From: a virus
Virus record (IMG/VR): IMGVR_UViG_3300036466_000070
Coordinates: 1 to 41,934 of that record
Strand: one strand, 5' to 3'
Length of the DNA stretch: 41,934 nt
Below are positions 2,992 through 41,539 of this stretch, one piece after another. The notes beneath the pieces were generated by a model. It was not told where the DNA came from. It ran no database searches and saw only the letters and a program-made list of their open reading frames with translations. The first letter of the stretch is position 1; every line of letters starts with the position of its first letter. The translations under genes were made by a program, and so were the position numbers.

Positions 2992-3285
2992 TTAGTCTCC
3001 CACGGCGCGTAGCTTGTTCTTGCCTTTTTCGCGCATCTCTCTGAGTTTCTTTTGTACCTCGGAAAGCTCTCCGTCGGTATCCGCATCAGCGGTAACCTCG
3101 TTCTGCTTCAGAAAGTTGTTCATTGCTGTCAGCTCAGCCGGCGACAGCGGCATAACGAAGTTCTCTTCTTCGTCTTCTTCATGTTCTTTCTCGGCGTCCT
3201 TGAGCACAGTGTCTAGCCGGTAGTTGTAGTACCGGGTAAGCATACCGTGTAGTTTACCGAGATCGTCAACGTGCCCCTTGCTCAT
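2992..3285 (-). CDS. terS: Terminase small subunit (DNA recognition)
   Basis: The 97-aa product is the size of T7 gp18 (89 aa) and sits directly before the large terminase. It should form the ring that recognises phage DNA ends and activates the large subunit. The centre is strongly acidic (a run of Glu/Asp around residues 32-42), followed by VMPLSPAELTAMNNFLKQN, a motif I associate with small terminases of phiKMV-like phages. The C-terminus is helical and basic. The ATG at 3285 has a GAGAGAGG site and overlaps the preceding membrane-protein gene by 20 bases. Confidence 0.85.
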   Translation of the reverse strand: MSKGHVDDLGKLHGMLTRYYNYRLDTVLKDAEKEHEEDEEENFVMPLSPAELTAMNNFLKQNEVTADADTDGELSEVQKKLREMREKGKNKLRAVGD

Positions 3286-3505
3286 ACCTCTCTCGCTCCT
3301 CTATCTTGGTTTCAACCCGGACCATTATGCGAGTCAGGTTGTCTACCTTACGGACCAGTTCCCTCTGTATTTCTGTTGAGTTCTTGTTATCTGTTTCGAG
3401 CACTGTAATCCTCTCGGAGTGCCCCAGTGTAAATGTGCCTACTACCCCCAATGTGGCAGCGGCCACTGCGGGGGCAGCATAATCCAGAAACATCTGGCGA
3501 ATCAT
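3266..3505 (-). CDS. Small membrane protein with coiled coil; holin or i-spanin candidate
   Basis: The 79-aa product has one hydrophobic segment near the N-terminus (about residues 8-27, YAAPAVAAATLGVVGTFTLG) followed by a heptad-like charged helix to the end. It occupies the slot between tail fibre and small terminase that holds the holin gene 17.5 in T7. The ribosome site, AGGAGG seven bases before ATG, is the strongest in the late region. One membrane segment plus a coiled coil also fits the inner-membrane subunit of a spanin. Holin is suggested by position, i-spanin by topology; the sequence does not settle it. Confidence 0.6.
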   Translation of the reverse strand: MIRQMFLDYAAPAVAAATLGVVGTFTLGHSERITVLETDNKNSTEIQRELVRKVDNLTRIMVRVETKIEERERYEQGAR

Positions 3506-3525
3506 ACTGCCTCCTGAATTGTTAA

Positions 3526-3672
3526 CTAATCTGCTGTTCTAGCCGAGCCAATATCCATATCGGCGGGCGTGTCGGCTGCGTGGATGATGATCTTGGTTAT
3601 CTGTCTCATCTTCTGTTCCTTTATCCGCGCCTCACCACAGCAAGGGCAGGCGAATTCGGGTGGCTTGAAGTA
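3526..3672 (-). pseudogene. Endolysin remnant: M15-peptidase-like and amidase-like N-terminal fragments
   Basis: A 48-codon frame between tailspike and the holin-slot gene reads YFKPPEFACPCCGEARIKE, which resembles the conserved start of phage M15-type peptidase endolysins. It continues in frame into a 27-codon piece starting at ATG 3609: ITKIIIHAADTPADMDIG, which closely resembles the start of N-acetylmuramoyl-L-alanine amidase endolysins, including the zinc-ligand His in IIIH. It stops at TAG (3528-3526) after about 27 of an expected 140 or more residues. The first part has AAAGGAG upstream but no usable start codon. The second has its own AAGGAA site, so a short peptide could still be made. 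Neither part can be an active enzyme. No intact endolysin gene was found elsewhere. Confidence 0.55.
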
Positions 3673-3701
3673 TCTCCTTTAGCTTATCGTCCAGCATCAA
3701 A

Positions 3702-5678
3702 CTAATTTGTTATCCTAAGCTGCCTAAAGCCTGTCCCTGCACTGTCAGAGGCTCCAGCGAAAACCTGTTTAAAGGTATAAGAGCCACCGATTAAGAAGCC
3801 CGCAAACACCGTCCCGCCCAATTCGTTAGCTGTCGCGCCAGTACGGAAAAATTCATCATTACCGGGCCGTATTGAAAGATTGTGACCAAACTGCTCAAAG
3901 TCGTTAACGGCATTACGAATTGAAACTCTCATGTTGTCAGTGCCGTTATCCGTTACTAACGGTAAACTGTTCGTGGCAACCGTAGTTGTCTCAGAGTTTG
4001 CACCAAGCGTAACAGCCATGCTTTTTGTCTCAAGAAAACTCGTCCTAGTCCTGTCAATATCGTATCCATCGCCGCCAGCGTTTTGGTGCCTCGGGCTGCT
4101 ATGATAAAAGTTGTCAATAGGCAGAGTTCCAGCGCCAGAATCAATTTTTACTGGAGTTCCAACATTTTCATATAGCGGGGCAATTATCTGTATTTGATCG
4201 CAGCTTCTATCCGTGGTGGTTACACGCAAGCCAATCTTACTATTAATGTAAGAGCAAGAAATCATAGTTAGCGATCTACAACTATCAATCAACCATGCAG
4301 GCTGGTCTCCAGAGCTGGCCACATTTGAGTTCCATGCCTTGCTTTCCTGCACCATAATTTCTTGAGTGTTCTTGATAATGACAGAAGGAACCGTCCCCGC
4401 CTCTGTAACTTTGTTTGAAAACAACTTTCTAATGCTGACAGTTTGGTTTACAGGCAGTGTGTGACCCGGCTTTAACTGAGACACAAAGCCGGATTGTGCC
4501 GCTGCAATTTGACTAATCCTAAAGTCATCAAACAAGATATTGTCATAGAGCATTTCACCGACATATCCATCACAGCCTTGCAGGTTGCAGTCAATCCCAA
4601 GGCCAACCACTCCATGACCAACAAGAGTAGCTGTAGTGTTTGGTGGAGTTGCGTAAATTACCGCGTCGCCAGTGAAGCCAGTCTGCGCTTTTATGACTGA
4701 CGTTACAGAGCCCTGACCAACCAGTCTAACACCTGCACTATAAATGTTAATCTGCTGAGAGGTTTCATACTCTCCAGCGGGAAAAACAACTTCCTGACCA
4801 TAACGGAAACCTCCGTTGTTATTTATCAGCGGAACAATGTCAATGGCCGCTTGTATAGCAGCATAAGAGTCAACACCAGTCTCATCTTTTACTGCACCAA
4901 ACCAACGAATGTCTATCTTTTCAAATCCGGTCCTTTCTGCATATTGCCCGTTACTCAAAACAACATAAATCCCCTCCAGCGGATCACTAGGAGGTGTGCC
5001 ACTCTTAACCACAAAAATACCTGACCGCCCACCTTCCTCAAGGCTGAACTGGTACCCCGCAGAAACGTCATAGGCTTTCATTTCGGTGCGGGAAGATACG
5101 CGGATTACGCGATTATCAAGCGCCTCAGTCACTGTGTCAGAGGTTCCGGTGTGGGCGATTAGGTCGGAGCCTTGGGCTGGATCGCTTGACTGCAGCTCCT
5201 GCCGGAGAACGGCAGCACTGGCTGATTCTCTGATATCCGACAGCCGCGCTGCATCTGTTGGTTCAGTGGGCTCTCCTAGATTCCGGATAAGGTTCCCGTT
5301 CAGATTCATGTCAGTCCGAATACTCTCGAATCCATAGCCATCCAATAGCTCATGGATTGAGTTCAACAGATGATCAAGTCCGCGATCTGCAGTAGCTTCA
5401 GTCAGAATCTCTCCGTCCTCGAAGTCAACAGCCGGCTCGTCTTTGTCCATAATGCGGCGGATATTGACCACTACACCAGAACCCGGGGCAGCTCCATCCA
5501 GCTCAATAAGCCCATCGTTGATCCATGTGAACGTGCGCTCTGCCGGCTCACCTAGACCGTCCACCTCGCCCTCTACAAATACGTGAACGCTGTCCCGAGA
5601 GAACAGACCGTTCGTGAAGTTCACTGCGAATTGCTTGGTAACGCCGTCACCGACAGGCGTGTTCACAGAAAAAGCCAT
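3702..5678 (-). CDS. Tail fibre/tailspike with T7 gp17-like anchor and beta-helix domain
   Basis: The 658-aa product is the receptor-binding protein. Residues 1 to about 150 (AFSVNTPVGDGVTKQFAVNF onward) match the T7 gp17 N-terminal anchor that attaches to the tail. From about residue 255, IDIRWFGAVKDETGVD followed by AIQAAIDI and a VVFPAGEYETSQ strand is the typical entry into a pectate-lyase-like right-handed beta-helix, as in tailspikes that cleave surface polysaccharides. The C-terminal end is probably a trimerisation or receptor-binding cap. Bases 3702 to about 5040 look richer in A+T than the anchor-coding part, suggesting an exchanged module. A GGAGG site precedes the ATG. Enzymatic activity and substrate are inference. 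Confidence 0.88.
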   Translation of the reverse strand: MAFSVNTPVGDGVTKQFAVNFTNGLFSRDSVHVFVEGEVDGLGEPAERTFTWINDGLIELDGAAPGSGVVVNIRRIMDKDEPAVDFEDGEILTEATADRGLDHLLNSIHELLDGYGFESIRTDMNLNGNLIRNLGEPTEPTDAARLSDIRESASAAVLRQELQSSDPAQGSDLIAHTGTSDTVTEALDNRVIRVSSRTEMKAYDVSAGYQFSLEEGGRSGIFVVKSGTPPSDPLEGIYVVLSNGQYAERTGFEKIDIRWFGAVKDETGVDSYAAIQAAIDIVPLINNNGGFRYGQEVVFPAGEYETSQQINIYSAGVRLVGQGSVTSVIKAQTGFTGDAVIYATPPNTTATLVGHGVVGLGIDCNLQGCDGYVGEMLYDNILFDDFRISQIAAAQSGFVSQLKPGHTLPVNQTVSIRKLFSNKVTEAGTVPSVIIKNTQEIMVQESKAWNSNVASSGDQPAWLIDSCRSLTMISCSYINSKIGLRVTTTDRSCDQIQIIAPLYENVGTPVKIDSGAGTLPIDNFYHSSPRHQNAGGDGYDIDRTRTSFLETKSMAVTLGANSETTTVATNSLPLVTDNGTDNMRVSIRNAVNDFEQFGHNLSIRPGNDEFFRTGATANELGGTVFAGFLIGGSYTFKQVFAGASDSAGTGFRQLRITN

Positions 5679-5718: not shown

Positions 5719-8700
5719 TTATTCTTCTAGCATTAGCTGCATCAGCGATTTGCCGAAAATAGTAGTGCTTAGCGGCAGAGCCATAAAGGCACCGCGAATG
5801 TCTGCGTCAGATACGTCACCCATGAGCGCCTTGCCCGGTAGTGCCCCGGCCTTGGCGAACTTGTTGATCTGGCTTGCAGCCGGAATGAAGTCGATAATGT
5901 CGAACTCATCCACTCTGTTACCTGTATGCCCCATCTTCCGGGTGTTCAGTACATCAGGTGCCAGTCCTAGCTGGTTAGCCACTGTCCCGATCTCAGGCAG
6001 CACAGAGGCCATGCCCATATAGTTCACGGTCTGCTTGATCAGGTCTTCCTGCTCGAGCTCTCGGTCGCTCATAGCAGCCTTGATAGACTGTACGCCATAA
6101 GACGCAGCGAAGCCGTACAGGATAGTCTGCATTGTAGCTTGGTCATGGAACCGCAGATTCCGCAGTAGCTGCTTCTCGAACGCCACCATAGGGAAGTGCC
6201 TGAACTGGGTTAGCAACGATCCAACGGTCTTGTGCATCCAGTTAGATGTCTCTCCGGCAAGCTGACGCTGTACCACCTGTGCTGTATGCCGATTGATAGC
6301 AATAGCGAATTGCTCTGCTGTTTCTTCAGGCCACTTGGTCAGGTTGATCTTTGTCATCGCGCCGTTGGCATCGAACTCTGCGAACTTGTTGATCTGCTTG
6401 ATTGCATCCTGCAGTTGCTTGGGGTCCATGCCAATGTCTTCCATACGGGCAGCAGACTTAGCCAGCTTCTCGGGATTCCGTGCCAGATCAGCGAATTTGT
6501 TGATCATCATCTTGGCCGCCATCCTGTGCTCCATGTGACGAACTGTGTTCATACCACTGGCATAGCCAAGCAGCACACTGCCTCGACCAAGGCCCTTGTC
6601 CAGAACCTTACCCCATGTTTGTAGGTCCATAGCACCGCTGATCTTATCGTCGATCACGATGTCAGGGCGATACAGTAGATGGTCATAGTCGAACTCGCCA
6701 AGCAGGGGACGTAGCTCATCAATCACTCCACCGGCCTTCTTTGGTGTCCGGGCAAATGTAACAATGTCGTCTACTGCAGGCATAGCCTTAGCGGCAGCCT
6801 TCAGACCGAGCCTTCCTACTACAGTACCAAGCTCAGCAAGCTGTGCAGCACCGACCATACCCAACGAGGAGATAGTAGCTGCTTGCTGCAGGCGGCGGGC
6901 ATTCTTGTTGATACCGCCGGCAATAGGTGTAGCGGTGAAGTAAGATTTGATGTCGTCCAAGAACTCAGACAGGTTATCGTCCTGTCCGTCCGCCAGCCCG
7001 GCAACCCGGGCATTATCTTTCATGGCAGCAGACTTCCAGTTGTTCCAGATCGTATCGTTAGTGAAGCCCTTCTTCGCCATTGCAGACCTACCAGCAACAT
7101 CACGAGCATACTTGCTTGCGATACCGTTGAGGTCATTGTCTACAAGGTCAATCAGGGACAGATCATTTACCTGCTGGTTCAGATCAATCTTTGTCCGACC
7201 CTTGGTAAAGCTGGGTCCAGCCTTTGCTTCTCGTGCATCAAGTACCCTCATCATTCCGTTAATCTGCTCATCTCCGATCCCCATCCTTTCAAGGGCTGTG
7301 CGGAGCTGTCCGCGCTGGTTCTTCTGCAGGAGTCCAGCAATGTTGGCATCTACGCCAGCAGTACCGTCCAGTGCCCGCTTAACTACAGCGGCTGCAATCT
7401 CGTCGGCCATCTCTTTCGGGATGTCAACGGACTGGTAACCTCGGCTGATCAATGCTGTTGATTTACGCTTGCCGGCGCGTAGGATAGCCTGTCCACTCCA
7501 TTGCAGAGGTACATAGCCCTTGCGCGTTGGAATGTCCTGCATAGCCTCCCAGCCAGACTTCTTACCGATGTTCAGGGCCTCTTCCATCATCTCGTCCCAC
7601 TTGTCGGCAGCAGCAATAATACGAGGATTCGTGATCTGCGTTTCCCGGCCAGTAGTCCTAGACTCCAGAACCTCTCGTACCTGACGGTCGAATTTGGCCC
7701 GGGCCTCTGTGTGGAAGTTACGCTTCCAGAAGTTGTAGCCTGATTCCTTGGCCCACGCAGCAGCTTCCTCGTTCAGAGGGATCATGCCCCGGGATAGGAT
7801 TCTACGCTCATACATATCCTTGTACATAGCGGCTGAGTTCTGCCGGCCCAGTGTACCTGTGCCGCCCTCAAGCAAGTCATTGGCAATACGCTTAACTACG
7901 TTGGATGGGTGGTTCATCAGGCGTGTAAAGTCACTAGACAGAATCTTGCTTTTGACAGCAGCAGTGTTTGTGAGGTCTGCATCAAGCCGCTCTTTAATGC
8001 GGTTGGAGGAAGCCCACTCGTTTGCGGCATCCAGAATATCATCCTCTGTGCCGGAAGTGTCTACAATCTGAGGCTCGTAGTTTCTGTTCCTCATAGCGCC
8101 AGCAGAGTCGTCTGCTGACATAGCAGCATCTTCTACCAGCTTGCGATCCATATCATCTCTGAGCTTCTTGCTGGCGGTCTTCATGTCCGCCTGAAGGTCT
8201 TCCCACGAACCAGCAACCCGTTCACTGATTGTAACAGTCTTGGTTCCTCGTGGCTCAATACCCGCGAAGCTGTACGCCTCATCCATACGCTCAGCAATGT
8301 CAGAGCCTACGTTAGCCTCTGGGTCTAGCCTGCTGATCTGACGAGCTACATCTTCCTGTACTCTGGCTCTCTTGGCATTACTCACTGTCTTCAGGTTTGG
8401 CAGAGAGTCCAGTACCTCTTCAGCCTCGATACGAGCAGATACCTCAATGGGTCCTGTCCTACGCTCAGCTCTGCGTCCTGTGGACACTACAGCGTCTCTG
8501 GTAACGGTTTGTGGTCTAGGAGGACCGTACACATCAGTTAGGTCTGTAACGCTCTCACGGACGCCTGTGGTAGCTCCAGCGGCCTCTGTCGCTGCTTCAG
8601 TAGCAGGACGGGCAGCATCATCGGCGGCACGGGCAGGAGCACCCGGGACCTTGGGCTTCACAGCAGCGCCAATGGCACCACCAAGCACAAAGCCGAATGT

Positions 8701-9279
8701 GCCGGCATACAGGATATCTTCGCCGTCTTTCGTGTAATCGTTCGCGGCCAGTACAGCTTCTGCACCGGCAGCGGTTCCACTGGTTACCAAGCCCAGCCGC
8801 ACAGCGTTAGCCATGCGGTTCGCTTTGTTAGTCCAGCTTGCCGCAGCAGTCCACGGCACATAGTTCTCAGGAGACAGGACAGCGCCGATGAAGCTGGCGG
8901 TGATACCTGTGAATCCTGAGTCTGCAATAATTTGTTGGTCAGCTAGATCGTCTAATGCCCGCTGCCGTTCGTAACGGGCTGCGTCCAGCGAAGCCTCCCG
9001 GGCAATGCTTGGGTGCATGTGCTCAGGGAGTCCTTGTAGAAGTTCATCCTTGTGCTCCTCGAAACGATAGGACAAGTCAATGTCTTCCGGCTTCTCAGAT
9101 GCCAAAGATTCAAGTACATTGTATGCGAGGTTCTCCCTTCGGAAACCTGCACCTACAGTCTCAAAGAAACCCGGGGATTGCTCCTCGGGCTTCACTTGAG
9201 TGTAGCGTTTCATCCAAGAAGGGGCCGACGCAGCGGGGTCTTGTTGTTGCTGTTCGACATTCTCTGTTACATCGGCCAT
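5719..9279 (-). CDS. Internal virion (core/ejection) protein, gp16-like
   Basis: The 1186-aa product corresponds by position and size to T7 gp16 (1318 aa), the largest internal-core protein, ejected at infection to help build the channel for DNA across the envelope. The C-terminal 250 residues, with LTQFRHFPMVAFEKQLLRN, resemble the conserved C-terminal region of gp16-type proteins. Long helical, Ala-rich stretches dominate, and Gly/Ala-rich hydrophobic segments occur around residues 150-210. I see no N-terminal transglycosylase domain of the kind T7 gp16 carries; the muralytic domain is instead in the neighbouring gene. An AGGAGG site precedes the ATG. Confidence 0.87.
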   Translation of the reverse strand: MADVTENVEQQQQDPAASAPSWMKRYTQVKPEEQSPGFFETVGAGFRRENLAYNVLESLASEKPEDIDLSYRFEEHKDELLQGLPEHMHPSIAREASLDAARYERQRALDDLADQQIIADSGFTGITASFIGAVLSPENYVPWTAAASWTNKANRMANAVRLGLVTSGTAAGAEAVLAANDYTKDGEDILYAGTFGFVLGGAIGAAVKPKVPGAPARAADDAARPATEAATEAAGATTGVRESVTDLTDVYGPPRPQTVTRDAVVSTGRRAERRTGPIEVSARIEAEEVLDSLPNLKTVSNAKRARVQEDVARQISRLDPEANVGSDIAERMDEAYSFAGIEPRGTKTVTISERVAGSWEDLQADMKTASKKLRDDMDRKLVEDAAMSADDSAGAMRNRNYEPQIVDTSGTEDDILDAANEWASSNRIKERLDADLTNTAAVKSKILSSDFTRLMNHPSNVVKRIANDLLEGGTGTLGRQNSAAMYKDMYERRILSRGMIPLNEEAAAWAKESGYNFWKRNFHTEARAKFDRQVREVLESRTTGRETQITNPRIIAAADKWDEMMEEALNIGKKSGWEAMQDIPTRKGYVPLQWSGQAILRAGKRKSTALISRGYQSVDIPKEMADEIAAAVVKRALDGTAGVDANIAGLLQKNQRGQLRTALERMGIGDEQINGMMRVLDAREAKAGPSFTKGRTKIDLNQQVNDLSLIDLVDNDLNGIASKYARDVAGRSAMAKKGFTNDTIWNNWKSAAMKDNARVAGLADGQDDNLSEFLDDIKSYFTATPIAGGINKNARRLQQAATISSLGMVGAAQLAELGTVVGRLGLKAAAKAMPAVDDIVTFARTPKKAGGVIDELRPLLGEFDYDHLLYRPDIVIDDKISGAMDLQTWGKVLDKGLGRGSVLLGYASGMNTVRHMEHRMAAKMMINKFADLARNPEKLAKSAARMEDIGMDPKQLQDAIKQINKFAEFDANGAMTKINLTKWPEETAEQFAIAINRHTAQVVQRQLAGETSNWMHKTVGSLLTQFRHFPMVAFEKQLLRNLRFHDQATMQTILYGFAASYGVQSIKAAMSDRELEQEDLIKQTVNYMGMASVLPEIGTVANQLGLAPDVLNTRKMGHTGNRVDEFDIIDFIPAASQINKFAKAGALPGKALMGDVSDADIRGAFMALPLSTTIFGKSLMQLMLEE

Positions 9280-9288
9280 ATAGCCTCC

Positions 9289-12231
9289 TTATTTAAAACG
9301 TGGTTGGTTCATAATGCTGATAAGTTTCTCTGCATATTCCGGATCGGTGGCATAGCCGGCCTCTTGCAAGGCTCTGGCTTGCTCCTCCGGACTTTCTGCA
9401 GCAAGGGCTTTCTTATAGCGAGGGTTCTCGTAGAGGAAGTCCCTAAAGCCCTGCACAGCCTCGGGGAAGCTGTTGAACTTCCTGAAGTTGTCCACCATGT
9501 TCACCCGCTTGCCGTCGATGATCTCGTGGGTCAGGAACTTTTGACCGTCGCCCTTGATACCGAAGTAGTTATTACCTTTAACAGACGATCCCCACCCAGA
9601 CTCAAGTGCGGCCTGTGCAGCAGCGACCTCTGGGAAAATCTCTGTATCCGCAAGCAAGGCACGGGTAGTTCTCAGTGCGTCTTGTGCGAATGCCTCCGGC
9701 GAGTCAGCTCGTGGCGTCTTCGGGAGGTCCGGGTTACGGCTGAGTTGGTATTCGTCCAGCTTCCCGGCTTCGAGCAAGCGTTGCTGTTCAGGGGTATTCT
9801 GGTTACGTGTTGCATCTCGAGTCCGCTTCCACGACTCGAATTCCTCATCGCTCCTTAATCCCTTATCTTTGATCACCTTCGATTTCATGGCCCTACGAGC
9901 CAGATGTTCCTCGTTGCGGTCCATGTCCAACTTCACATCTATCATAGAGTCGATAAGCCTATCAACCTCTTCTTGAGTGCGCTTACCTGTAGCGACATCC
10001 TCTTGCAGAGTGCTGCTTGCGAGTACCTGCTGCCGAAGATCAGCACGAAGGGGCTCTTGCTCTTCAGCAACCGCCGCATCAACACGGGACTCTAGTACGA
10101 ATGAACCGAGCCAGTTCGACAACGCGGCCTCTGCCTGTTTCTCTGTATAGATTCCTGTATTGACTGCTTCCTCCATGAGCTTCATCTTTCGGGCCTGTTC
10201 TTTCTCTGCAGCTCCCATTTCACGCAGTTGTGCCGCGTCTTTTGGAACCAGTACGTCAGCATGGTAAGCTGCGCCGGCTGCCTGCAGGTCAACAGACACT
10301 ACATCAGAGATCACTCCGTTCTCGTTAAGGTTACCGAACATAAGAGCGTTACTCAGGGGATCACCCATAATCACAAGATTATCTCCGTCAAAGTCTGGGT
10401 TCGCCTCAAGGATTGCATTCTTCTGATATTCGATTGCTCCCTCCAGCTGCTTGTCGCCAATGTTCATACGAGATGCAAGGCTCTGTCCGCCATTGTAGAT
10501 AAGCGAGTCTCCAACCTGTTCATGCGTCTCCATGATCTTAATACGGGCAGCTTCTACTGCAGCCTCTGGATCAGTATAGCCTGTCTGCATATAGGTCTCT
10601 GACAACCGAGTGATACGCTCACGCACCATTCCCTCATTTCTGATAGGAGTAGTAACGCCAATGGCATCCGTCCAGCTGCGGACATTGAAGAACCCTTTAC
10701 CCATCACAGTGTCTACTTCTGCTGTGACACGCTTGCGCATGTCAGTCCGCTCTTCTATGGTCAGCTCTCTGGCGTTCTCCTTGTTCGTGCGGACCATAGC
10801 CGCTGCATCACGCAGAGCCATTCCGCCGTACTCACTGAGGTTGTAGATGTTCTTGAACTTCACCCGGTTCTCTGCGCTCAAGTGCTGCATTGCCAGATCA
10901 GGGTTCTTCCTGTAGTACGAGACTGTTTCAGCGTAGGTTGCCTCGAAGTCCGGGTTAACTGTGCCGTCATCGTTGAACGGGTTTGTAAAGCCAGCATCCC
11001 AGCGAGTCTTCTTATCATCGTGCACTACATTGTTATCGGACCACAGAGACTGTTTCTGGCGTTCTTTCTGCTCAGGTGTAAGCTCTGGGTTGTTCTCGAT
11101 CTCGGCCTCTACTGTACGTACAACCTCTTGGTGCTGCTTGTTGGTCATGCCCGGGACCTTAGCCAGATCACCGTTCTGGTAATCCTCTGTCCTTACACTG
11201 ATCAGCATGTTCTTGTTCTTAGCTTCTCTCCACTTGCCCTCAAGGCTTGCGAAGTAGTCGTTGGTCTTGCGCTCAGGCCACTGCTCTTGGAACTGTGCAG
11301 CCATCTCCCGAACTTCAAGTACAGAGGACGCGGTGCCTATACCGGCCTCAAGGTCAGCGAGATCGTATTGATACGCGGTATCCAGCGCACTTCGCTTATT
11401 GGCTGTATACCGCGTCTCTGCAGCAAGCAGACTGCGCTCCTGTTCCGGGCTGAACTGAATACCTTGATCCCGCACATAGTTCAATGCAGTAGGGTCACCC
11501 ATGTCTAGCCCAAGGGCCGCCACATCAGCATAGGTCTGCTGTCGAAGTGCGGGGTCAGAAATCACAGGCATCTTCAGTGCATTCAGCATTCTAGCTCTTG
11601 CGTTGGCTTCGCCCTTCACATCACCAGTCTTCTGTGCCTCTTTCAGCAGGCGGATACTTCCAGTGACATCAGCGGTAGTCTGAGCAATAGCGTCAGCCCT
11701 GCGGCGCTTTACATTGGAGTTGGTCTGATACCGACCAAGCTCCGATACGAGAGGTAGTGCAGCTTCTGTGATCATGCTGTCCAGCTCGCGGTCGCCTGTG
11801 AGCATACCCTTGATCCTTCCGGCTACAGTAGAGCCGTACTCCAGTGGATCAATCTCGTTCTCACCTTCGTCGATCCGTCGCTTCTGTTCGGCATACCATT
11901 CCTGAGTCTTGATCTTGGCATCCATTGCTTTGTAGCCTCGACGGGTAGGAGGAGCTACACCTTCGGCCATTTCCTCGCCAGCAGCCCGCATCGTCTGCCC
12001 CTGCAAGAAGTTAGCCTTGGCCTGCTTCTCCATCTCCACTGCGCCAAGCTCTGTGCCGAATTTGGCTAGGGAGCTTAGTAGGCGATTACCCTGTACTTGC
12101 GTCTGTCCGAATACTGTACTCTGGACAGGTGCGAATGTGTCTACCGCTTGGACCATCTGGTTCCGGCCCTGTTCAGCAGCACGTTCCGCGTTGAGATCAC
12201 GGACGCCTCCGCGTTGTGGTGTTTGTGCCAT
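9289..12231 (-). CDS. Internal virion protein, gp15-like, with C-terminal GH73 glucosaminidase domain
   Basis: I start the gene at ATG 12231 (MAQTPQRGG), which has a CGGAGG site; the longer open frame runs into the neighbouring gene and is not credible. The 980-aa product is largely helical and fills the gp15 position. Residues about 844-980 form a FlgJ/GH73-type endo-beta-N-acetylglucosaminidase domain: AAAQAALESGWGSS with the likely catalytic Glu877, NNYFGIKGDG, then FRKFNSFPEAVQGFRDFL. This would open peptidoglycan during DNA ejection. A virion protein with a C-terminal muralytic domain is also the arrangement of phiKMV gp36. The GH73 assignment is from motifs I recognise. Confidence 0.9.
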   Translation of the reverse strand: MAQTPQRGGVRDLNAERAAEQGRNQMVQAVDTFAPVQSTVFGQTQVQGNRLLSSLAKFGTELGAVEMEKQAKANFLQGQTMRAAGEEMAEGVAPPTRRGYKAMDAKIKTQEWYAEQKRRIDEGENEIDPLEYGSTVAGRIKGMLTGDRELDSMITEAALPLVSELGRYQTNSNVKRRRADAIAQTTADVTGSIRLLKEAQKTGDVKGEANARARMLNALKMPVISDPALRQQTYADVAALGLDMGDPTALNYVRDQGIQFSPEQERSLLAAETRYTANKRSALDTAYQYDLADLEAGIGTASSVLEVREMAAQFQEQWPERKTNDYFASLEGKWREAKNKNMLISVRTEDYQNGDLAKVPGMTNKQHQEVVRTVEAEIENNPELTPEQKERQKQSLWSDNNVVHDDKKTRWDAGFTNPFNDDGTVNPDFEATYAETVSYYRKNPDLAMQHLSAENRVKFKNIYNLSEYGGMALRDAAAMVRTNKENARELTIEERTDMRKRVTAEVDTVMGKGFFNVRSWTDAIGVTTPIRNEGMVRERITRLSETYMQTGYTDPEAAVEAARIKIMETHEQVGDSLIYNGGQSLASRMNIGDKQLEGAIEYQKNAILEANPDFDGDNLVIMGDPLSNALMFGNLNENGVISDVVSVDLQAAGAAYHADVLVPKDAAQLREMGAAEKEQARKMKLMEEAVNTGIYTEKQAEAALSNWLGSFVLESRVDAAVAEEQEPLRADLRQQVLASSTLQEDVATGKRTQEEVDRLIDSMIDVKLDMDRNEEHLARRAMKSKVIKDKGLRSDEEFESWKRTRDATRNQNTPEQQRLLEAGKLDEYQLSRNPDLPKTPRADSPEAFAQDALRTTRALLADTEIFPEVAAAQAALESGWGSSVKGNNYFGIKGDGQKFLTHEIIDGKRVNMVDNFRKFNSFPEAVQGFRDFLYENPRYKKALAAESPEEQARALQEAGYATDPEYAEKLISIMNQPRFK

Positions 12232-12253
12232 TCGCACCTCCGAGTGTGTTAAG

Positions 12254-12862
12254 TTAGTTTCCGATACCGAGATTCCGGTTTGCATAGTCTCCGATATCGC
12301 TAAGCTCGAAGCCTGCCGACTCGAAATCCCATGCTGTTCCATAGGTAGTACGAGCCATATCAAGCCCGGTGCCAAGAGCAGCAGCCCAAGGGCTAGGCTC
12401 AGGAGTTGGAAGGAAGATGTTCTGGGTTTGCCGTGACTGTACTTCAGCCTCGATCCCTCTTCGCGTCCTCTCAAGCTCACTAACTGTTTGGTTGAGTGTA
12501 TCCATTGCATTTGCTTCTGCCTTTGCTGCGTTACGTTCAATATCCATGATGGAATCTTCAACAGACATACCGGCTGTGCCGGCTGCTGCAGCATTGACGA
12601 CCGCAGCCGCTCTGGATTTGATACGGGCTACGTCAATACTCGCGTCTGCGTTTACATACTGGCGCATTGCCCTGTTGATATTAAGTGTTACGTTGGTCTG
12701 CTTGTCATCACCTACAGAACGAGCCCGGGCATTATTCTGCGCCTGAATCTTCTGTCGATGTTCCCCGAGGATGTTGTCCATCTTGGCTTGGCGCTTGGCG
12801 CTCTCATATCCGAGAGCACCCTGCAAAGCCATTGACCCGAGGAAAAGTGCTGGTAGGGCCAT
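12254..12862 (-). CDS. Internal virion protein, gp14-like
   Basis: The 202-aa product matches T7 gp14 (196 aa) in size and order: it lies between the nozzle gene and the gp15-like gene. The N-terminus (ALPALFLGSMALQGALGYES) is hydrophobic and then becomes a long Ala/Gln-rich amphipathic helix, as in gp14, which forms the outer-membrane part of the ejection channel. A GAGGT site precedes the ATG at 12862. Confidence 0.8.
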   Translation of the reverse strand: MALPALFLGSMALQGALGYESAKRQAKMDNILGEHRQKIQAQNNARARSVGDDKQTNVTLNINRAMRQYVNADASIDVARIKSRAAAVVNAAAAGTAGMSVEDSIMDIERNAAKAEANAMDTLNQTVSELERTRRGIEAEVQSRQTQNIFLPTPEPSPWAAALGTGLDMARTTYGTAWDFESAGFELSDIGDYANRNLGIGN

Positions 12863-33395: not shown

Positions 33396-34043
33396 TTACT
33401 TCTCCAGAATAACCTGCCATGCAGCAATCTTGCGTACATTCTGGCGCTGGAATTCCTTCTTACGTTCTACCCGGGCCTCCAGCTTCCTGATTTGTTTCTC
33501 CAGAGACTCGTTCTCTGCTACCAGCTCATCGTGTGACTGAATGTGCTTCTCAGGAACAGTATCGTCCACAACAGCAAAATCAGCCTTTGCTCCCCGTAGC
33601 ACCACTACAGCCTGCAGCTCATGGTGGTCGTATATGTGATTGCCTAGCCCGTTGTCTAGGGCGACCAGAATATGAGCCGAGCGGCCCGATGTTCCGGGGT
33701 ATTCCGCCTCCTTAACCTCGCCGTACCCGTTGAGCCCCTCGTCCATCAGGTGGTTACTTCCGTAGGCCCCTTGACTTACGATCTTAACCCGGTCTCCATT
33801 TTTGAACTGGATAACGTGTGCATCTTCCTCTTTCACCTTCTCCAGCTCACTTGGCTTGTAGTCGTATGACCACGTGAATGTAGGATGAGACACACTAATA
33901 CGATCATTAAATACACATCGCACCGTTCCAATTTCACCTCTAACATGCTGCATCTCTTCGGCCATACCATAGCGTGCACTGTCGCCCTCGCCAATCAGGA
34001 TACGTACCTTGTCGCCTGCCGTAATGCCGTGTGTAGTTTCCAT
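33396..34043 (-). CDS. Hypothetical protein with two KOW/SH3-like repeats and coiled coil, 215 aa
   Basis: Residues about 7-67 (ITAGDKVRILIGEG ... GEIGTVRCVF ... WSYDYKPSELEKV) and about 80-145 (FKNGDRVKIVSQGAYG ... GYGEVKEAEYP ... IYDHHELQAV) look like two copies of a small beta-barrel, with GDxVxI at the start, a G-E-turn in the middle and an xxELxxV end. Such barrels bind nucleic acid or protein. The C-terminal 50 residues are a charged coiled coil (ENESLEKQIRKLEARVERKK). Family and function are not recognised. It lies in the second transcription block after the promoter at 34989. Confidence 0.7.
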   Translation of the reverse strand: METTHGITAGDKVRILIGEGDSARYGMAEEMQHVRGEIGTVRCVFNDRISVSHPTFTWSYDYKPSELEKVKEEDAHVIQFKNGDRVKIVSQGAYGSNHLMDEGLNGYGEVKEAEYPGTSGRSAHILVALDNGLGNHIYDHHELQAVVVLRGAKADFAVVDDTVPEKHIQSHDELVAENESLEKQIRKLEARVERKKEFQRQNVRKIAAWQVILEK

Positions 34044-38538: not shown

Positions 38539-38565
38539 AATTCACCTGTTCTAGTTGAGTTCATC

Positions 38566-38597
38566 GAAAAAGGCACTCGGTATTGAATGCCCTTTCT
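38566..38597 (-). terminator. Attenuator-like hairpin in the early leader
   Basis: On the minus strand AGAAAGGGCA (38597-38588) can pair with TGCCTTTTTC (38575-38566), whose T run overlaps the stem, 28 bases before the first start codon. The same AAAGGGC can instead pair with GCCCTTT at 38628-38622, so two exclusive folds exist, as in attenuators. It lies downstream of both boxA elements. Termination efficiency cannot be judged by eye. Confidence 0.5.
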
Positions 38598-38943
38598 AAT
38601 GGCCCCTTGCCTACTATGGACAAAGGGCAGAAAGCTGCAGCAATATCCATCCAGCCTAAACCGAATGGTATTGTGGCGCGCTACGGATTGGATACGGCTC
38701 GTGACACCTCATTACTGCGCGCATTTTCTCGAACAGATTAGATACTTATTCCTTCCCGTATTGTGCCGGCCCTCATCTCCGGATTTTACGATCAGCAAAT
38801 AATACGCTTTCAAGCAGTCGATACCTGCAACCGTGCACTTCCCATGAATCAGTCACTCCCTTCGTCAGGGGCGGTGTCATAGCTACGCCAGTTGGTCATC
38901 CGTCGCTTTACTAACGTACCTCGGCTAACCGAACGATACACTA

Positions 38944-38978
38944 GAAAGAAACTTTCACTAACCCGAATTGTTAAAGAG
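38944..38978 (-). promoter_or_regulatory. rrn-type boxA (copy 2) with downstream hairpin
   Basis: CTCTTTAACAA on the minus strand (38978-38968) matches the core of the bacterial rRNA-operon boxA (TGCTCTTTAACAA in E. coli), which binds NusB and S10 for antitermination. Eleven bases further on, GAAAG-ttt-CTTTC (38956-38944) forms a small hairpin in the position of a boxB. It lies about 25 bases after the expected start of the candidate promoter at 39008-39037. Confidence 0.65.
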
Positions 38979-39007
38979 TGACCGAATGTTCGCCAGTCGA
39001 TGGTGCT

Positions 39008-39037
39008 ATTCTCTCATACTTGCTTACCGTGTGTCAA
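39008..39037 (-). promoter_or_regulatory. Candidate host sigma70 early promoter
   Basis: A perfect TTGACA (39037-39032) is followed after 18 bases by GAGAAT (39013-39008), which matches four of six bases of TATAAT. It is the only perfect -35 hexamer seen in the region. Transcription would start near 39001, just upstream of boxA copy 2. Confidence 0.55.
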
Positions 39038-39171
39038 CTCCCTGTTTTCTTGTCAGTGCAAACTTTCGTTTCGGAGTATCCGCCGTTAATAGCGGTTCCG
39101 TTTCATGTCCTCAACCTAGATAACTATTATGTATTGTCTAGGCTGGCACTAACTGCAGGGAGTTAGATATA

Positions 39172-39215
39172 AGAAAGCCAAAGACTTTCTAAAGGCAAGC
39201 GAGTTGTTAAAGAGC
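39172..39215 (-). promoter_or_regulatory. rrn-type boxA (copy 1) with downstream hairpin
   Basis: CGCTCTTTAACAA on the minus strand (39216-39204) matches twelve consecutive bases of the E. coli rrn boxA and resembles the boxA of lambdoid nut sites. Thirteen bases later, AGAAAG (39190-39185) and CTTTCT (39177-39172) form a hairpin with a seven-base loop, like a boxB. The module repeats at 38944-38978. Confidence 0.7.
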
Positions 39216-39237
39216 GTATCCGTATTGGATGATTCAT

Positions 39238-39266
39238 AATTTACACATAGATGAGACTGTGTGCAA
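39238..39266 (-). promoter_or_regulatory. Weak candidate sigma70 promoter before boxA copy 1
   Basis: TTGCAC (39266-39261), 17-base spacer, TAAATT (39243-39238). Half of the -35 and four of six -10 bases match. Its place about 20 bases before boxA copy 1 mirrors the better promoter before copy 2, but on sequence alone it is weak. Confidence 0.35.
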
Positions 39267-39278
39267 GCTCTTTCTGCA

Positions 39279-39308
39279 ATTATTTTCTAACTTTCTTTAT
39301 TTCTTCAA
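39279..39308 (-). promoter_or_regulatory. Candidate host sigma70 promoter in AT-rich stretch
   Basis: TTGAAG (39308-39303), 18-base spacer, AATAAT (39284-39279), matching four and five of six consensus bases. It lies in A/T-rich sequence that would act as an UP element. It could start the transcript that carries both boxA copies. AT-rich DNA yields chance matches, so confidence is limited. Confidence 0.4.
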
Positions 39309-39552
39309 TAAATACAGATAGTTACTGACAGCTCTACGGTTCTATGCCGTATATCTGCCTGTGTTCTTTCTCTGTATCTATCTGTTTTATATAGATATTT
39401 TAGACTTTCTAGATATCTATTCTTTCTGTCTGTCTATCTAACTTATTGATTCTATTACTATTCTGCTAGTACTGATTCTATATACAGATACAAGATTACT
39501 GCAGGATTTCTGTAAGTGTATGAAATCATTAGAAAAATAATAGACATTGATT

Positions 39553-39568
39553 AGCTATTGGTAGTTCT
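39553..39568. repeat. 16-base direct repeat, copy 1
   Basis: AGCTATTGGTAGTTCT occurs here and at 39628-39643, flanking the phage promoter, and is followed in both places by a similar T-rich stretch ending TTCTG. It may reflect duplication of the promoter region or a binding site. Confidence 0.8.
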
Positions 39569-39577
39569 GTGTTCTGT

Positions 39578-39600
39578 TTCTCCTACAGTGAGGGTTAAAT
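39578..39600 (-). promoter_or_regulatory. Phage RNA polymerase promoter at the left end
   Basis: The minus strand reads TTTAACCCTCACTGTAGGAG, with the start G at 39583. It is very close to the T3 promoter (TTAACCCTCACTAAAGGGAGA) and shares CCCTCACTGTAGGAGAA with the late promoter at 20536. It lies upstream of all early promoters and could both transcribe the genome from its left end and prime replication. Confidence 0.85.
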
Positions 39601-39627
39601 AAAACGTAAATAAAACAGGAACTTAAG

Positions 39628-39643
39628 AGCTATTGGTAGTTCT
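39628..39643. repeat. 16-base direct repeat, copy 2
   Basis: Second copy of AGCTATTGGTAGTTCT (first at 39553-39568), 75 bases away and on the other side of the phage promoter. Confidence 0.8.
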
Positions 39644-39649
39644 ATATTC

Positions 39650-40030
39650 TGCAGGGAGTGGAGACAAGGCAGGAACAGGGCAGGGATGCAAAGAGAAGAT
39701 AGATACTAGCCGCTTCTCTCCGCTGTACACCTTGCGGAGCTATGGCGCTGCCTGTGCTACTAGTATCTAACTGCGGCACTGTCCGTGCCTCTCGCCGGCT
39801 ACAGTGGCGGTTCCATAGCGGAGCCATGGCAATGCACAGGTAGCCATTACAGGCCACTGCAGCGCACCACAGGCAGCCAGAAGTCTCCCTTCATCTAGTA
39901 GCTGGACACATGGCGTACCCGTCCCGGCAATCGATGAGCTCAGGCGGTTCACAGGCGGCACGCTGGAGGCCCTATGGGGGTAATCAGAGCGCGTTGGTCT
40001 ATGAATTACCCCCTCGTACCTCTGACCCGT
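39650..40030. other. GC-rich non-coding segment with several inverted repeats; probable genome-end region
   Basis: No supported gene is present. Perfect inverted repeats include AGATACTAG (39701-39709) with CTAGTATCT (39760-39768), CTCCGC (39718-39723) with GCGGAG (39734-39739), and GGGGGTAAT (39976-39984) with ATTACCCCC (40005-40013). A degenerate promoter-like CCACTGTAG lies near 39790. The segment separates the last late gene from the left-end promoter, which is where linear T7-like genomes have their terminal repeats, so packaging signals are likely here. Confidence 0.5.
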
Positions 40031-40038
40031 TTTAACAT

Positions 40039-40314
40039 TTACCCTTTATAGGGCTGCGGCTGAGCCACTGATCGAACTAGGGCCATAAACCCTGTCTCGA
40101 TGTCTGTGCGGGCAATACTATTCCAGCGTAGTGCTTGGGCACGGTCAGTGCGCTCTGCCTCTTCTGGCTCGTACCCGGCCTTAACAAGACCATGTTTAAC
40201 TTCATCCACTAGAACAAGTACCTCTGCCTCCAGCCGCTTCGCTTTATTCATAAGGTCGATCTCTGCCTGCGACAGATCACGATACCCACTGATCTTCTTG
40301 TGTTGATCTTTCAT
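40039..40314 (-). CDS. Acb2-like anti-CBASS cyclic-nucleotide sponge
   Basis: The 91-aa product starts MKDQHKKISGYRDLSQAEID and ends with RWNSIARTDIETGFMALVRS followed by VAQP. This two-part signature (DQHxxIxGYRDLS at the start; W-x-I-A-R-T-D-x-x-x-G-F-M-A-L-x-R-x-V-A-x-P at the end, with helices between) is that of the Acb2 family, helical-hairpin proteins that form hexamers and bind cyclic di- and trinucleotides, blocking CBASS and in some cases Thoeris defence signalling. I start at ATG 40314 with an AGGAG site; the longer frame is spurious. It is the last late gene before the non-coding region, an odd place for an anti-defence gene unless left-end promoters read it first on a permuted map. 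Confidence 0.85.
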   Translation of the reverse strand: MKDQHKKISGYRDLSQAEIDLMNKAKRLEAEVLVLVDEVKHGLVKAGYEPEEAERTDRAQALRWNSIARTDIETGFMALVRSVAQPQPYKG

Positions 40315-40373
40315 AGTATCTCCTATTGGTACGGGCCACAAGGACCCCCTCGCATTCCTGAAAGGTTTTAAGA

Positions 40374-40745
40374 TTAAGACTGTACCTGCACCGCCTCCAG
40401 CCCCCAAGCCTTAAACTGCTCATGCGGATTAACATCAACCGCCACCAGAATCTCCCCCGACTGTATCGCTGCCACAGCGGCCTCGGCTTGTGTGCGGTCG
40501 TACTCAGGCGGTACGTGATCTGGGTCAGGTGGTAGCGTCATGGTTGACAGGGCATCGGTGACGACTGGCTTGCAGACTGTGTGCGCTACGGCGTAATCCG
40601 TGGTGCCGTTGGTGTAGGTGGCCTGACGGAAGGTTTCGATGTCTGCGCTGGATTCGCCCATGAGGCAGGCGAGGTGATTGGCCTCGGTGAGCAGGGAGGC
40701 TGGAGCGGCTATGGTTACGCGATGTTTGTAGGCTGATATGATCAT
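40374..40745 (-). CDS. Hypothetical late protein, 123 aa
   Basis: The product has an Ala-rich N-terminal half (IAAPASLLTEANHLACLMGE) and includes DIETFRQATYTNGTTDYAVA, then PLPPDPDH and an acidic helical end. Proteins of this type accompany LamG-like and small structural genes in several phages, but I cannot name the family. It overlaps the LamG-like gene by four bases (ATGA), so the two are co-translated. Confidence 0.7.
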   Translation of the reverse strand: MIISAYKHRVTIAAPASLLTEANHLACLMGESSADIETFRQATYTNGTTDYAVAHTVCKPVVTDALSTMTLPPDPDHVPPEYDRTQAEAAVAAIQSGEILVAVDVNPHEQFKAWGLEAVQVQS

Positions 40746-41539
40746 GGCAAAGTTATTCCAGCTTTTTGGGCGAGATACTGGCGAGTAGACTGCCTTTCGG
40801 TCTCACCTAGATTCCTACCAATAAAGACAGTTCCATAATGCTTGCCATTCCATCTTTGTCCGGCAGGTAGGGCGCTTCCAACAATAATGTCATTGGTTAT
40901 TGGAATTGAACCGAAAGTTCCGGAAAGCGTAGATACGATTGCCCCGTCCTGAATGAATTCAATAGATGTCGGTGAATAGTGAATCTCAACAACCGTAGGG
41001 ACGCCACTTCCGAACGTAAAGGAACTCGTTCTATAGGGTCCATCCGAAACGCCGCTCGTGTTTCCTGTGCGAATCAGGATAAATTTGTCTGCAGATGATA
41101 GCGCATTGTCTCCGGCCTTAAATATTCCTGCTATCTTGGCGGGATCGTTTGTCGTGCATGCCACAAATACCGAAAACTCTGTCACTGTAAAGTTCGTAGT
41201 TGTATTTCTCAGAAAGTCATCAGTGCCGTCAAATTCTTCGGAACTAGTGCCTGAAGTGAGATCATAGGTTGGCCTACTTGTAGACGTGCCCTGTGACAAA
41301 TCGAGAGCATTAGGTGATTTATCTTCATTAAGCCCAACAGGATCACCGTCCGCCGTGACAGGGGTTGTGCCTGCGGCGTCTTGGTAGAGGGTGGTCAGGT
41401 CGGAGGGGTCGTACCATGCGCCTTGTTCGCCGTTGGCGAATAGGGAGAGAGGAGAAAACAGCTCAGAGCCCAACGGGCTGTTACCCCAGACCGACCTGAA
41501 CAAGCTGCCTCTCGTCCAAGGAGGATGCCATACGCTCAT
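40742..41539 (-). CDS. LamG/concanavalin-like virion-associated protein, 265 aa
   Basis: The N-terminus carries SPLSLFANGEQGAWYDPSDL and TLYQDAAGTTPVTADGDPVG, a module common in phage tail or decoration proteins. Residues about 110-250 alternate strands (FSVFVACTTND, KFILIRTGNT, VVEIHYSPTSIEFIQDGA) in the pattern of a concanavalin-like lectin fold, suggesting carbohydrate binding on the virion surface. A GGGAGGTG site precedes ATG 41539. The middle of the gene is A+T richer than the flanks. Role as a receptor-binding or decoration protein is inference. Confidence 0.75.
   Translation of the reverse strand: MSVWHPPWTRGSLFRSVWGNSPLGSELFSPLSLFANGEQGAWYDPSDLTTLYQDAAGTTPVTADGDPVGLNEDKSPNALDLSQGTSTSRPTYDLTSGTSSEEFDGTDDFLRNTTTNFTVTEFSVFVACTTNDPAKIAGIFKAGDNALSSADKFILIRTGNTSGVSDGPYRTSSFTFGSGVPTVVEIHYSPTSIEFIQDGAIVSTLSGTFGSIPITNDIIVGSALPAGQRWNGKHYGTVFIGRNLGETERQSTRQYLAQKAGITLP

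Follow-up and report, generated by a model that had tools for sequence, protein, structure and literature searches.

The window analysed here is the whole of a 41,934-base IMG/VR virus record. Its two ends share a 127-base repeat, and because of this overlap we consider the assembly to be closed. The record has an Autographiviridae gene set with a single-subunit RNA polymerase (PHROG 414, E = 3e-250) and a nozzle protein, and its terminase subunits are akin to those of Rhizobium, Alteromonas and similar phages. The same phage is present in a second sample (contig L010, 99.99%), where the sequence does not cover the region discussed below. On the minus strand, a gene for an internal virion protein with a C-terminal GH73 domain (9289 to 12594) is followed by a further internal virion protein gene (5719 to 9279), a tailspike gene (3702 to 5678), a short slot, a holin-like gene (3266 to 3505), the small and large terminase genes, gene 900-1226 and a spanin-like gene (547 to 903). 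The tailspike gene was named on the basis of the similarity of its N-terminal part to that of related phages, its size and its position. The predicted holin-like gene, which might also be Rz-like, encodes an N-terminal hydrophobic stretch and a coiled coil, as judged from hydropathy, and gave a weak match to an Rz-like spanin family of PHROG (E = 0.007). According to sequence and hydropathy, the product of 547-903 resembles a unimolecular spanin, having a lipobox (LAGC) and a C-terminal transmembrane stretch; this gene comes straight after 900-1226, with no endolysin gene in between.

The slot between the tailspike and the holin-like gene contains a minus-strand frame (3678 to 3526) that encodes RRYFKPPEFACPCCGEARIKEQKMRQITKIIIHAADTPADMDIGSARTAD and then stops. 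The initial annotation had recognised two endolysin-like starts in this short frame, one of the M15 type and the other of the amidase type, and had regarded them as remnants of two different endolysins; both statements are borne out by similarity searches. The first part of the frame, YFKPPEFACPCCGEARIKEQK (3612 to 3678, minus strand), matches over 38 residues the N-terminus of an intact Peptidase_M15_3 (PF08291) protein encoded by phage contig L032 (tblastn, 40.8 bits), and the underlying DNA is 84% identical over 45 bases. The L032 protein itself is a clear member of this family (PF08291, E = 2e-19). The second part (3526 to 3609, minus strand), running from an ATG through 27 codons to a TAG, matches positions 13 to 43 of the 215 positions of the amidase profile PHROG 822 (E = 4e-4), that is, a region near the N-terminus, and its DNA is 87% identical (46 of 53 bases) to the start of the intact amidase gene of L027. 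When the slot was shuffled 2,000 times at the dinucleotide level, the score of neither head was reached. The isolated M15 head was not scored by PHROG or Pfam, and PF08291 has no match in the window; its identification therefore leans on the pairwise and DNA matches.

Neither head is attached to an enzyme. For the M15 head, there is no in-frame ATG, GTG or TTG, and the slot contains no open frame with a start codon that could encode the zinc-binding and catalytic body of an M15 endolysin. The amidase head is preceded by a Shine-Dalgarno-like AAAGGA (3622 to 3617) and starts with the ATG at 3609, but its product has only 27 residues; beyond the first ~30 residues, the zinc ligands and the fold of Amidase_2 (PF01510) are absent, as the frame ends at 3526. 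Only 20 bases separate the stop codon of the stump from the start of the holin-like gene, in which neither enzyme body fits, and this rules out a frameshifted or split endolysin running on downstream. We also observed that the 11-mer ATTAGTTAACA, present as a single copy in the window (3520 to 3530, minus strand) before the Shine-Dalgarno sequence of the holin-like gene, is likewise present as a single copy in the related phage contig L045 (12900 to 12910), before the M15 stump described below. This shared 11-mer may be due to chance or mark an old boundary.

Comparison with related phages revealed that the tailspike gene is a mosaic. Codons 1 to ~124 (5308 to 5678) consist of sequence of the phage's own clade, and the DNA similarity to the relatives L045, L046 and L047 (69-70%), which spans the internal virion gene and the start of the tailspike gene, ends near position 5308. 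Homology to L045 (78%) restarts at 3515, which is the Shine-Dalgarno sequence of the holin-like gene. The segment bounded in this way by homology to relatives (3515 to 5308) would be of foreign origin; it comprises the tailspike gene from its hinge region on and both endolysin stumps. From the hinge on, the G+C content is 46.8%, compared with 51-55% in the neighbouring genes. Alignments showed that the hinge (about 4939 to 5204) is common to unrelated phages, with DNA identities of 88% for L057, 83% for L032, 82% for L043, 79% for L069 and 74% for L062. The outer part of the tailspike gave no match in any donor among the viral contigs and phage records searched.

Several of the phages that share the hinge have an intact endolysin gene directly behind the hinge-type tailspike gene, namely an M15 gene in L032 and L062 and a Hydrolase_2 gene in L057. 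L032 matches at the hinge as well as at the M15 head, and the two are collinear with the window; this contig was retrieved by two independent queries, the slot peptide and the tailspike. L043 was retrieved with the slot peptide and was then seen to share the hinge DNA. This 138-kb contig of a large phage has, at positions 5930 to 6189, the same hinge followed by a truncated and frameshifted M15 gene, the probable ATG of which lies in another frame, and, judged from its sequence, it is a parallel example of an endolysin remnant after a tailspike gene. Intact amidases of the type matching the second stump are encoded directly after tail fibre genes in L031 and L033; in L027, two small genes intervene. 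The relatives of the amidase stump follow fibres that are unrelated, and no donor combining the tailspike hinge with such an amidase was found. The open reading frames flanking the hinge-type genes suggest a resemblance to genes of long-tailed phages. Among prokaryote genomes, the hinge was found at a single locus, in a Marinobacter MAG, where no endolysin lies behind the tailspike gene.

L045, which originates from a different sample, was the only relative covering the slot that was returned when all viral contigs were searched with a degenerate holin pattern. Its slot contains another M15 stump, VVYAQHFSAEEFRDWAEAMSRAL, followed by a stop codon. The L045 stump matches the M15 protein of L062 with 27.7 bits, a score that was reached by none of 2,000 shuffles; used alone against phage records, for which it is too short a query, it gave no matches. 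In L003, the slot is a 46-base gap without a comparable ORF. An intact endolysin gene in the slot was found in none of the relatives examined. For the six relatives with a recognised endolysin, three locations of the gene were seen: after the large terminase gene, within the early region and between the genes for internal virion proteins. The first of these places is used by L002 (GH24), L003 (GH19-type), Caulobacter phage Cd1 and Paracoccus phage ParMal1, the second by Rhizobium phage Paso and the third by Alteromonas phage R8W (gp43).

The break in homology to relatives at ~5308 and 3515, the hinge shared with unrelated phages, the endolysins of the donor-type phages, the stump in L045 and the location of the endolysins of relatives at other places together lead us to the view that the stumps are hitchhiking scars of the replacement of a receptor-binding gene, and not what is left of a lysis enzyme that was the phage's own, a view that we hold with good, if not full, confidence. 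That the outer part of the tailspike was replaced from donors whose next gene encodes an endolysin is well supported. According to this model, recombination would have supplied the outer part from unrelated phages with an endolysin gene directly behind the tailspike or tail fibre gene. The downstream crossover would have taken place just inside the donor endolysin gene, so that its first codons were carried along and the remainder was left behind. A swap with a fibre-amidase donor may have come earlier and left the amidase head, which adjoins the holin-like gene, with the M15 head, which adjoins the tailspike gene, stemming from the latest swap; an earlier amidase swap and a later M15 swap would account for the observed nested order, and there were probably two such nested events. 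The earlier swap is proposed tentatively, because a donor with both hinge and amidase was not found. The stumps would be non-functional, and the slot would never have been the phage's own endolysin place.

Several observations count against this model. The outer part of the tailspike matches no donor, the tailspike of L045 lacks the hinge type of the window, three of the hinge-sharing contigs (L069, L066 and L073) have no endolysin behind the tailspike gene, no hinge-type donor had an amidase, and the model leaves the empty endolysin place after the large terminase gene unexplained. The last of these speaks for the explanation put forward in the initial annotation, in which the slot is the phage's own decayed endolysin locus. 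An amidase and an M15 endolysin would then have been acquired whole in turn, would have displaced the gene after the terminase and would have been deleted, with lysis now being brought about by, for example, the GH73 domain. Indeed, the place that holds the endolysin gene in L002, L003, Cd1 and ParMal1 is empty, and the spanin-like gene has been kept. However, in this course of events an essential function would have to be fully acquired twice and lost twice, and in none of the relatives does the slot hold an intact endolysin gene. In addition, all three stumps are truncated very near to their start, for which a crossover is a better explanation than random decay. The endolysins of relatives are encoded elsewhere, the stumps fall within a foreign segment, and unrelated phages sharing the hinge have intact endolysins directly behind the tailspike gene. 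We consider decay of an own locus rather unlikely, and the claim made for the slot is probably wrong.

It could also be argued that the assembly represents a variant with a deletion, or that alternative cassettes were collapsed in it, and that in the population the slot of most genomes contains an intact endolysin gene. The record is a metagenomic assembly in which a lysis enzyme is otherwise missing, but the assembly is closed by its 127-base end overlap, and L045, from another sample, likewise contains only a stump; we regard this explanation as most improbable. Alternatively, the stumps might be kept for a function, either as a short translated peptide or as a leader providing translational coupling to the holin gene. 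A Shine-Dalgarno-like sequence plus a start codon is present in both the amidase stump and that of L045, and both stumps stop a short distance 5' of the Shine-Dalgarno sequence of the holin gene. A precedent exists at a bacterial locus, where the retained endolysin fragment TcdL, whose ribosome-binding site is good, lies beside the holin gene tcdE (PMC6200909). Like TcdL, the stumps of the window are short, inactive endolysin fragments adjoining a holin gene, but TcdL belongs to a conserved bacterial locus and protein interactions have been reported for it (PMC6200909), whereas stumps of the window's type differ between relatives, which does not suggest conservation. The amidase stump has no sequence in common with the stump of L045, the 46-base gap of L003 has no such ORF, and start signals would be expected anyway from a crossover just inside a gene. 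A function of the stumps is therefore very unlikely in our opinion.

If the stumps are scars of tailspike exchange, lysis would have to proceed via another muralytic activity. The statement in the initial annotation that no intact endolysin is encoded elsewhere holds as far as tested: PHROG and Pfam scans, which covered nearly all other genes apart from a 47-aa ORF and some of the replication and head genes whose function is obvious, did not detect an endolysin, and the place after the terminase is empty. There, the candidates 900-1226, 547-903 and 197-619 gave no match to an enzyme; 197-556 was also modelled with AlphaFold from its single sequence, and the all-helical model was, with a mean pLDDT of 56, too poor to search with. 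The early region, where Rhizobium phage Paso has its endolysin gene, was also considered as a location; 33396-34043, located upstream of the primase gene, and its neighbours gave no match to lysis proteins.

A single muralytic domain, GH73, was found in the record, at the C-terminal end of the internal virion protein encoded by 9289-12594 (residues 979 to 1097; Pfam Glucosaminidase, E = 7.9e-30, profile positions 6 to 120 of 123). It is 57-64% identical to the corresponding domains of L045, L046 and L047, and our best guess is that it would be the lysis enzyme. Judged from sequence, a role in lysis is plausible; we do not rate it higher because such domains of virion proteins normally function in entry, and because in Paso and ParMal1 a separate endolysin exists beside the virion enzyme. 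An internal start that would release the domain was considered, but no convincing Shine-Dalgarno sequence or ribosome-binding site was seen upstream of it. Instead of GH73, present in L045 to L047, the end of the internal virion protein has a lysozyme-like domain in L012 and another lysozyme-like domain in L009, and L049 has the type of L009 in a separate frame (L009, L012 and L049 were assigned by eye). Since the muralytic module varies among relatives (window 9289 to 9800; L045-L047, L009, L012, L049 and L059), the end of the virion protein also looks like a site of exchange. A muralytic enzyme or domain at the internal virion protein genes is also found in the Foturvirus R8W, whose gp43 was taken as the endolysin by its authors (PMC8228385); gp43 is a stand-alone lysozyme-like gene, whereas the GH73 domain of the window is fused to a virion protein.

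Mosaic exchange of phage receptor-binding proteins has been reviewed and quantified (PMC10684548). As in the cases treated there, the N-terminal part of the window's tailspike is conserved, the outer part is replaced and homology extends across unrelated phages; in contrast to them, the exchanged segment passes the stop codon and carries truncated endolysin starts, apparently in layers. A search of the literature found nothing like endolysin stumps beside tailspike genes. Mosaicism of receptor-binding genes is well known, and what is unusual here are the layered stumps and the lack of an ordinary endolysin; the mosaicism is of a known kind but unusually legible. Whether this points to something more general, namely a lineage without a dedicated endolysin that lyses by GH73 and in which tailspike exchange is repeatedly bounded at the start of the neighbouring endolysin gene, leaving layered stumps, is a broader proposal that we consider unlikely. 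The stumps reveal the type of donor and their order suggests a succession of swaps, so that a gap between two genes becomes readable evidence for the movement of receptor-binding genes between phages. They also call for caution, as a stump beside a tailspike gene is insufficient for concluding that a phage is endolysin-defective or that a locus once held an endolysin gene.

Some other regions of the record deserve mention. Two minus-strand genes without an assigned function downstream of the terminase genes (40374 to 41539) are shared with L067 (2848 to 4142), with protein identities of 76% and 32%. L067 also has a tailspike with the same hinge as the window, and the gene pair is possibly a tailspike-associated cassette. 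The C-terminal part of the product of 40039-40407 (minus strand) matches Pfam Acb2_Tad1_hairpin (PF24729, E = 1e-16) and also PHROG 717; by sequence, it is possibly related to the proteins that act against bacterial defence as cyclic-nucleotide sponges, or may merely have a hairpin in common with them. Finally, a stretch of ~1.5 kb (38540 to 40038) has convincing genes on neither strand, and perhaps contains the physical genome end and the early promoter region.
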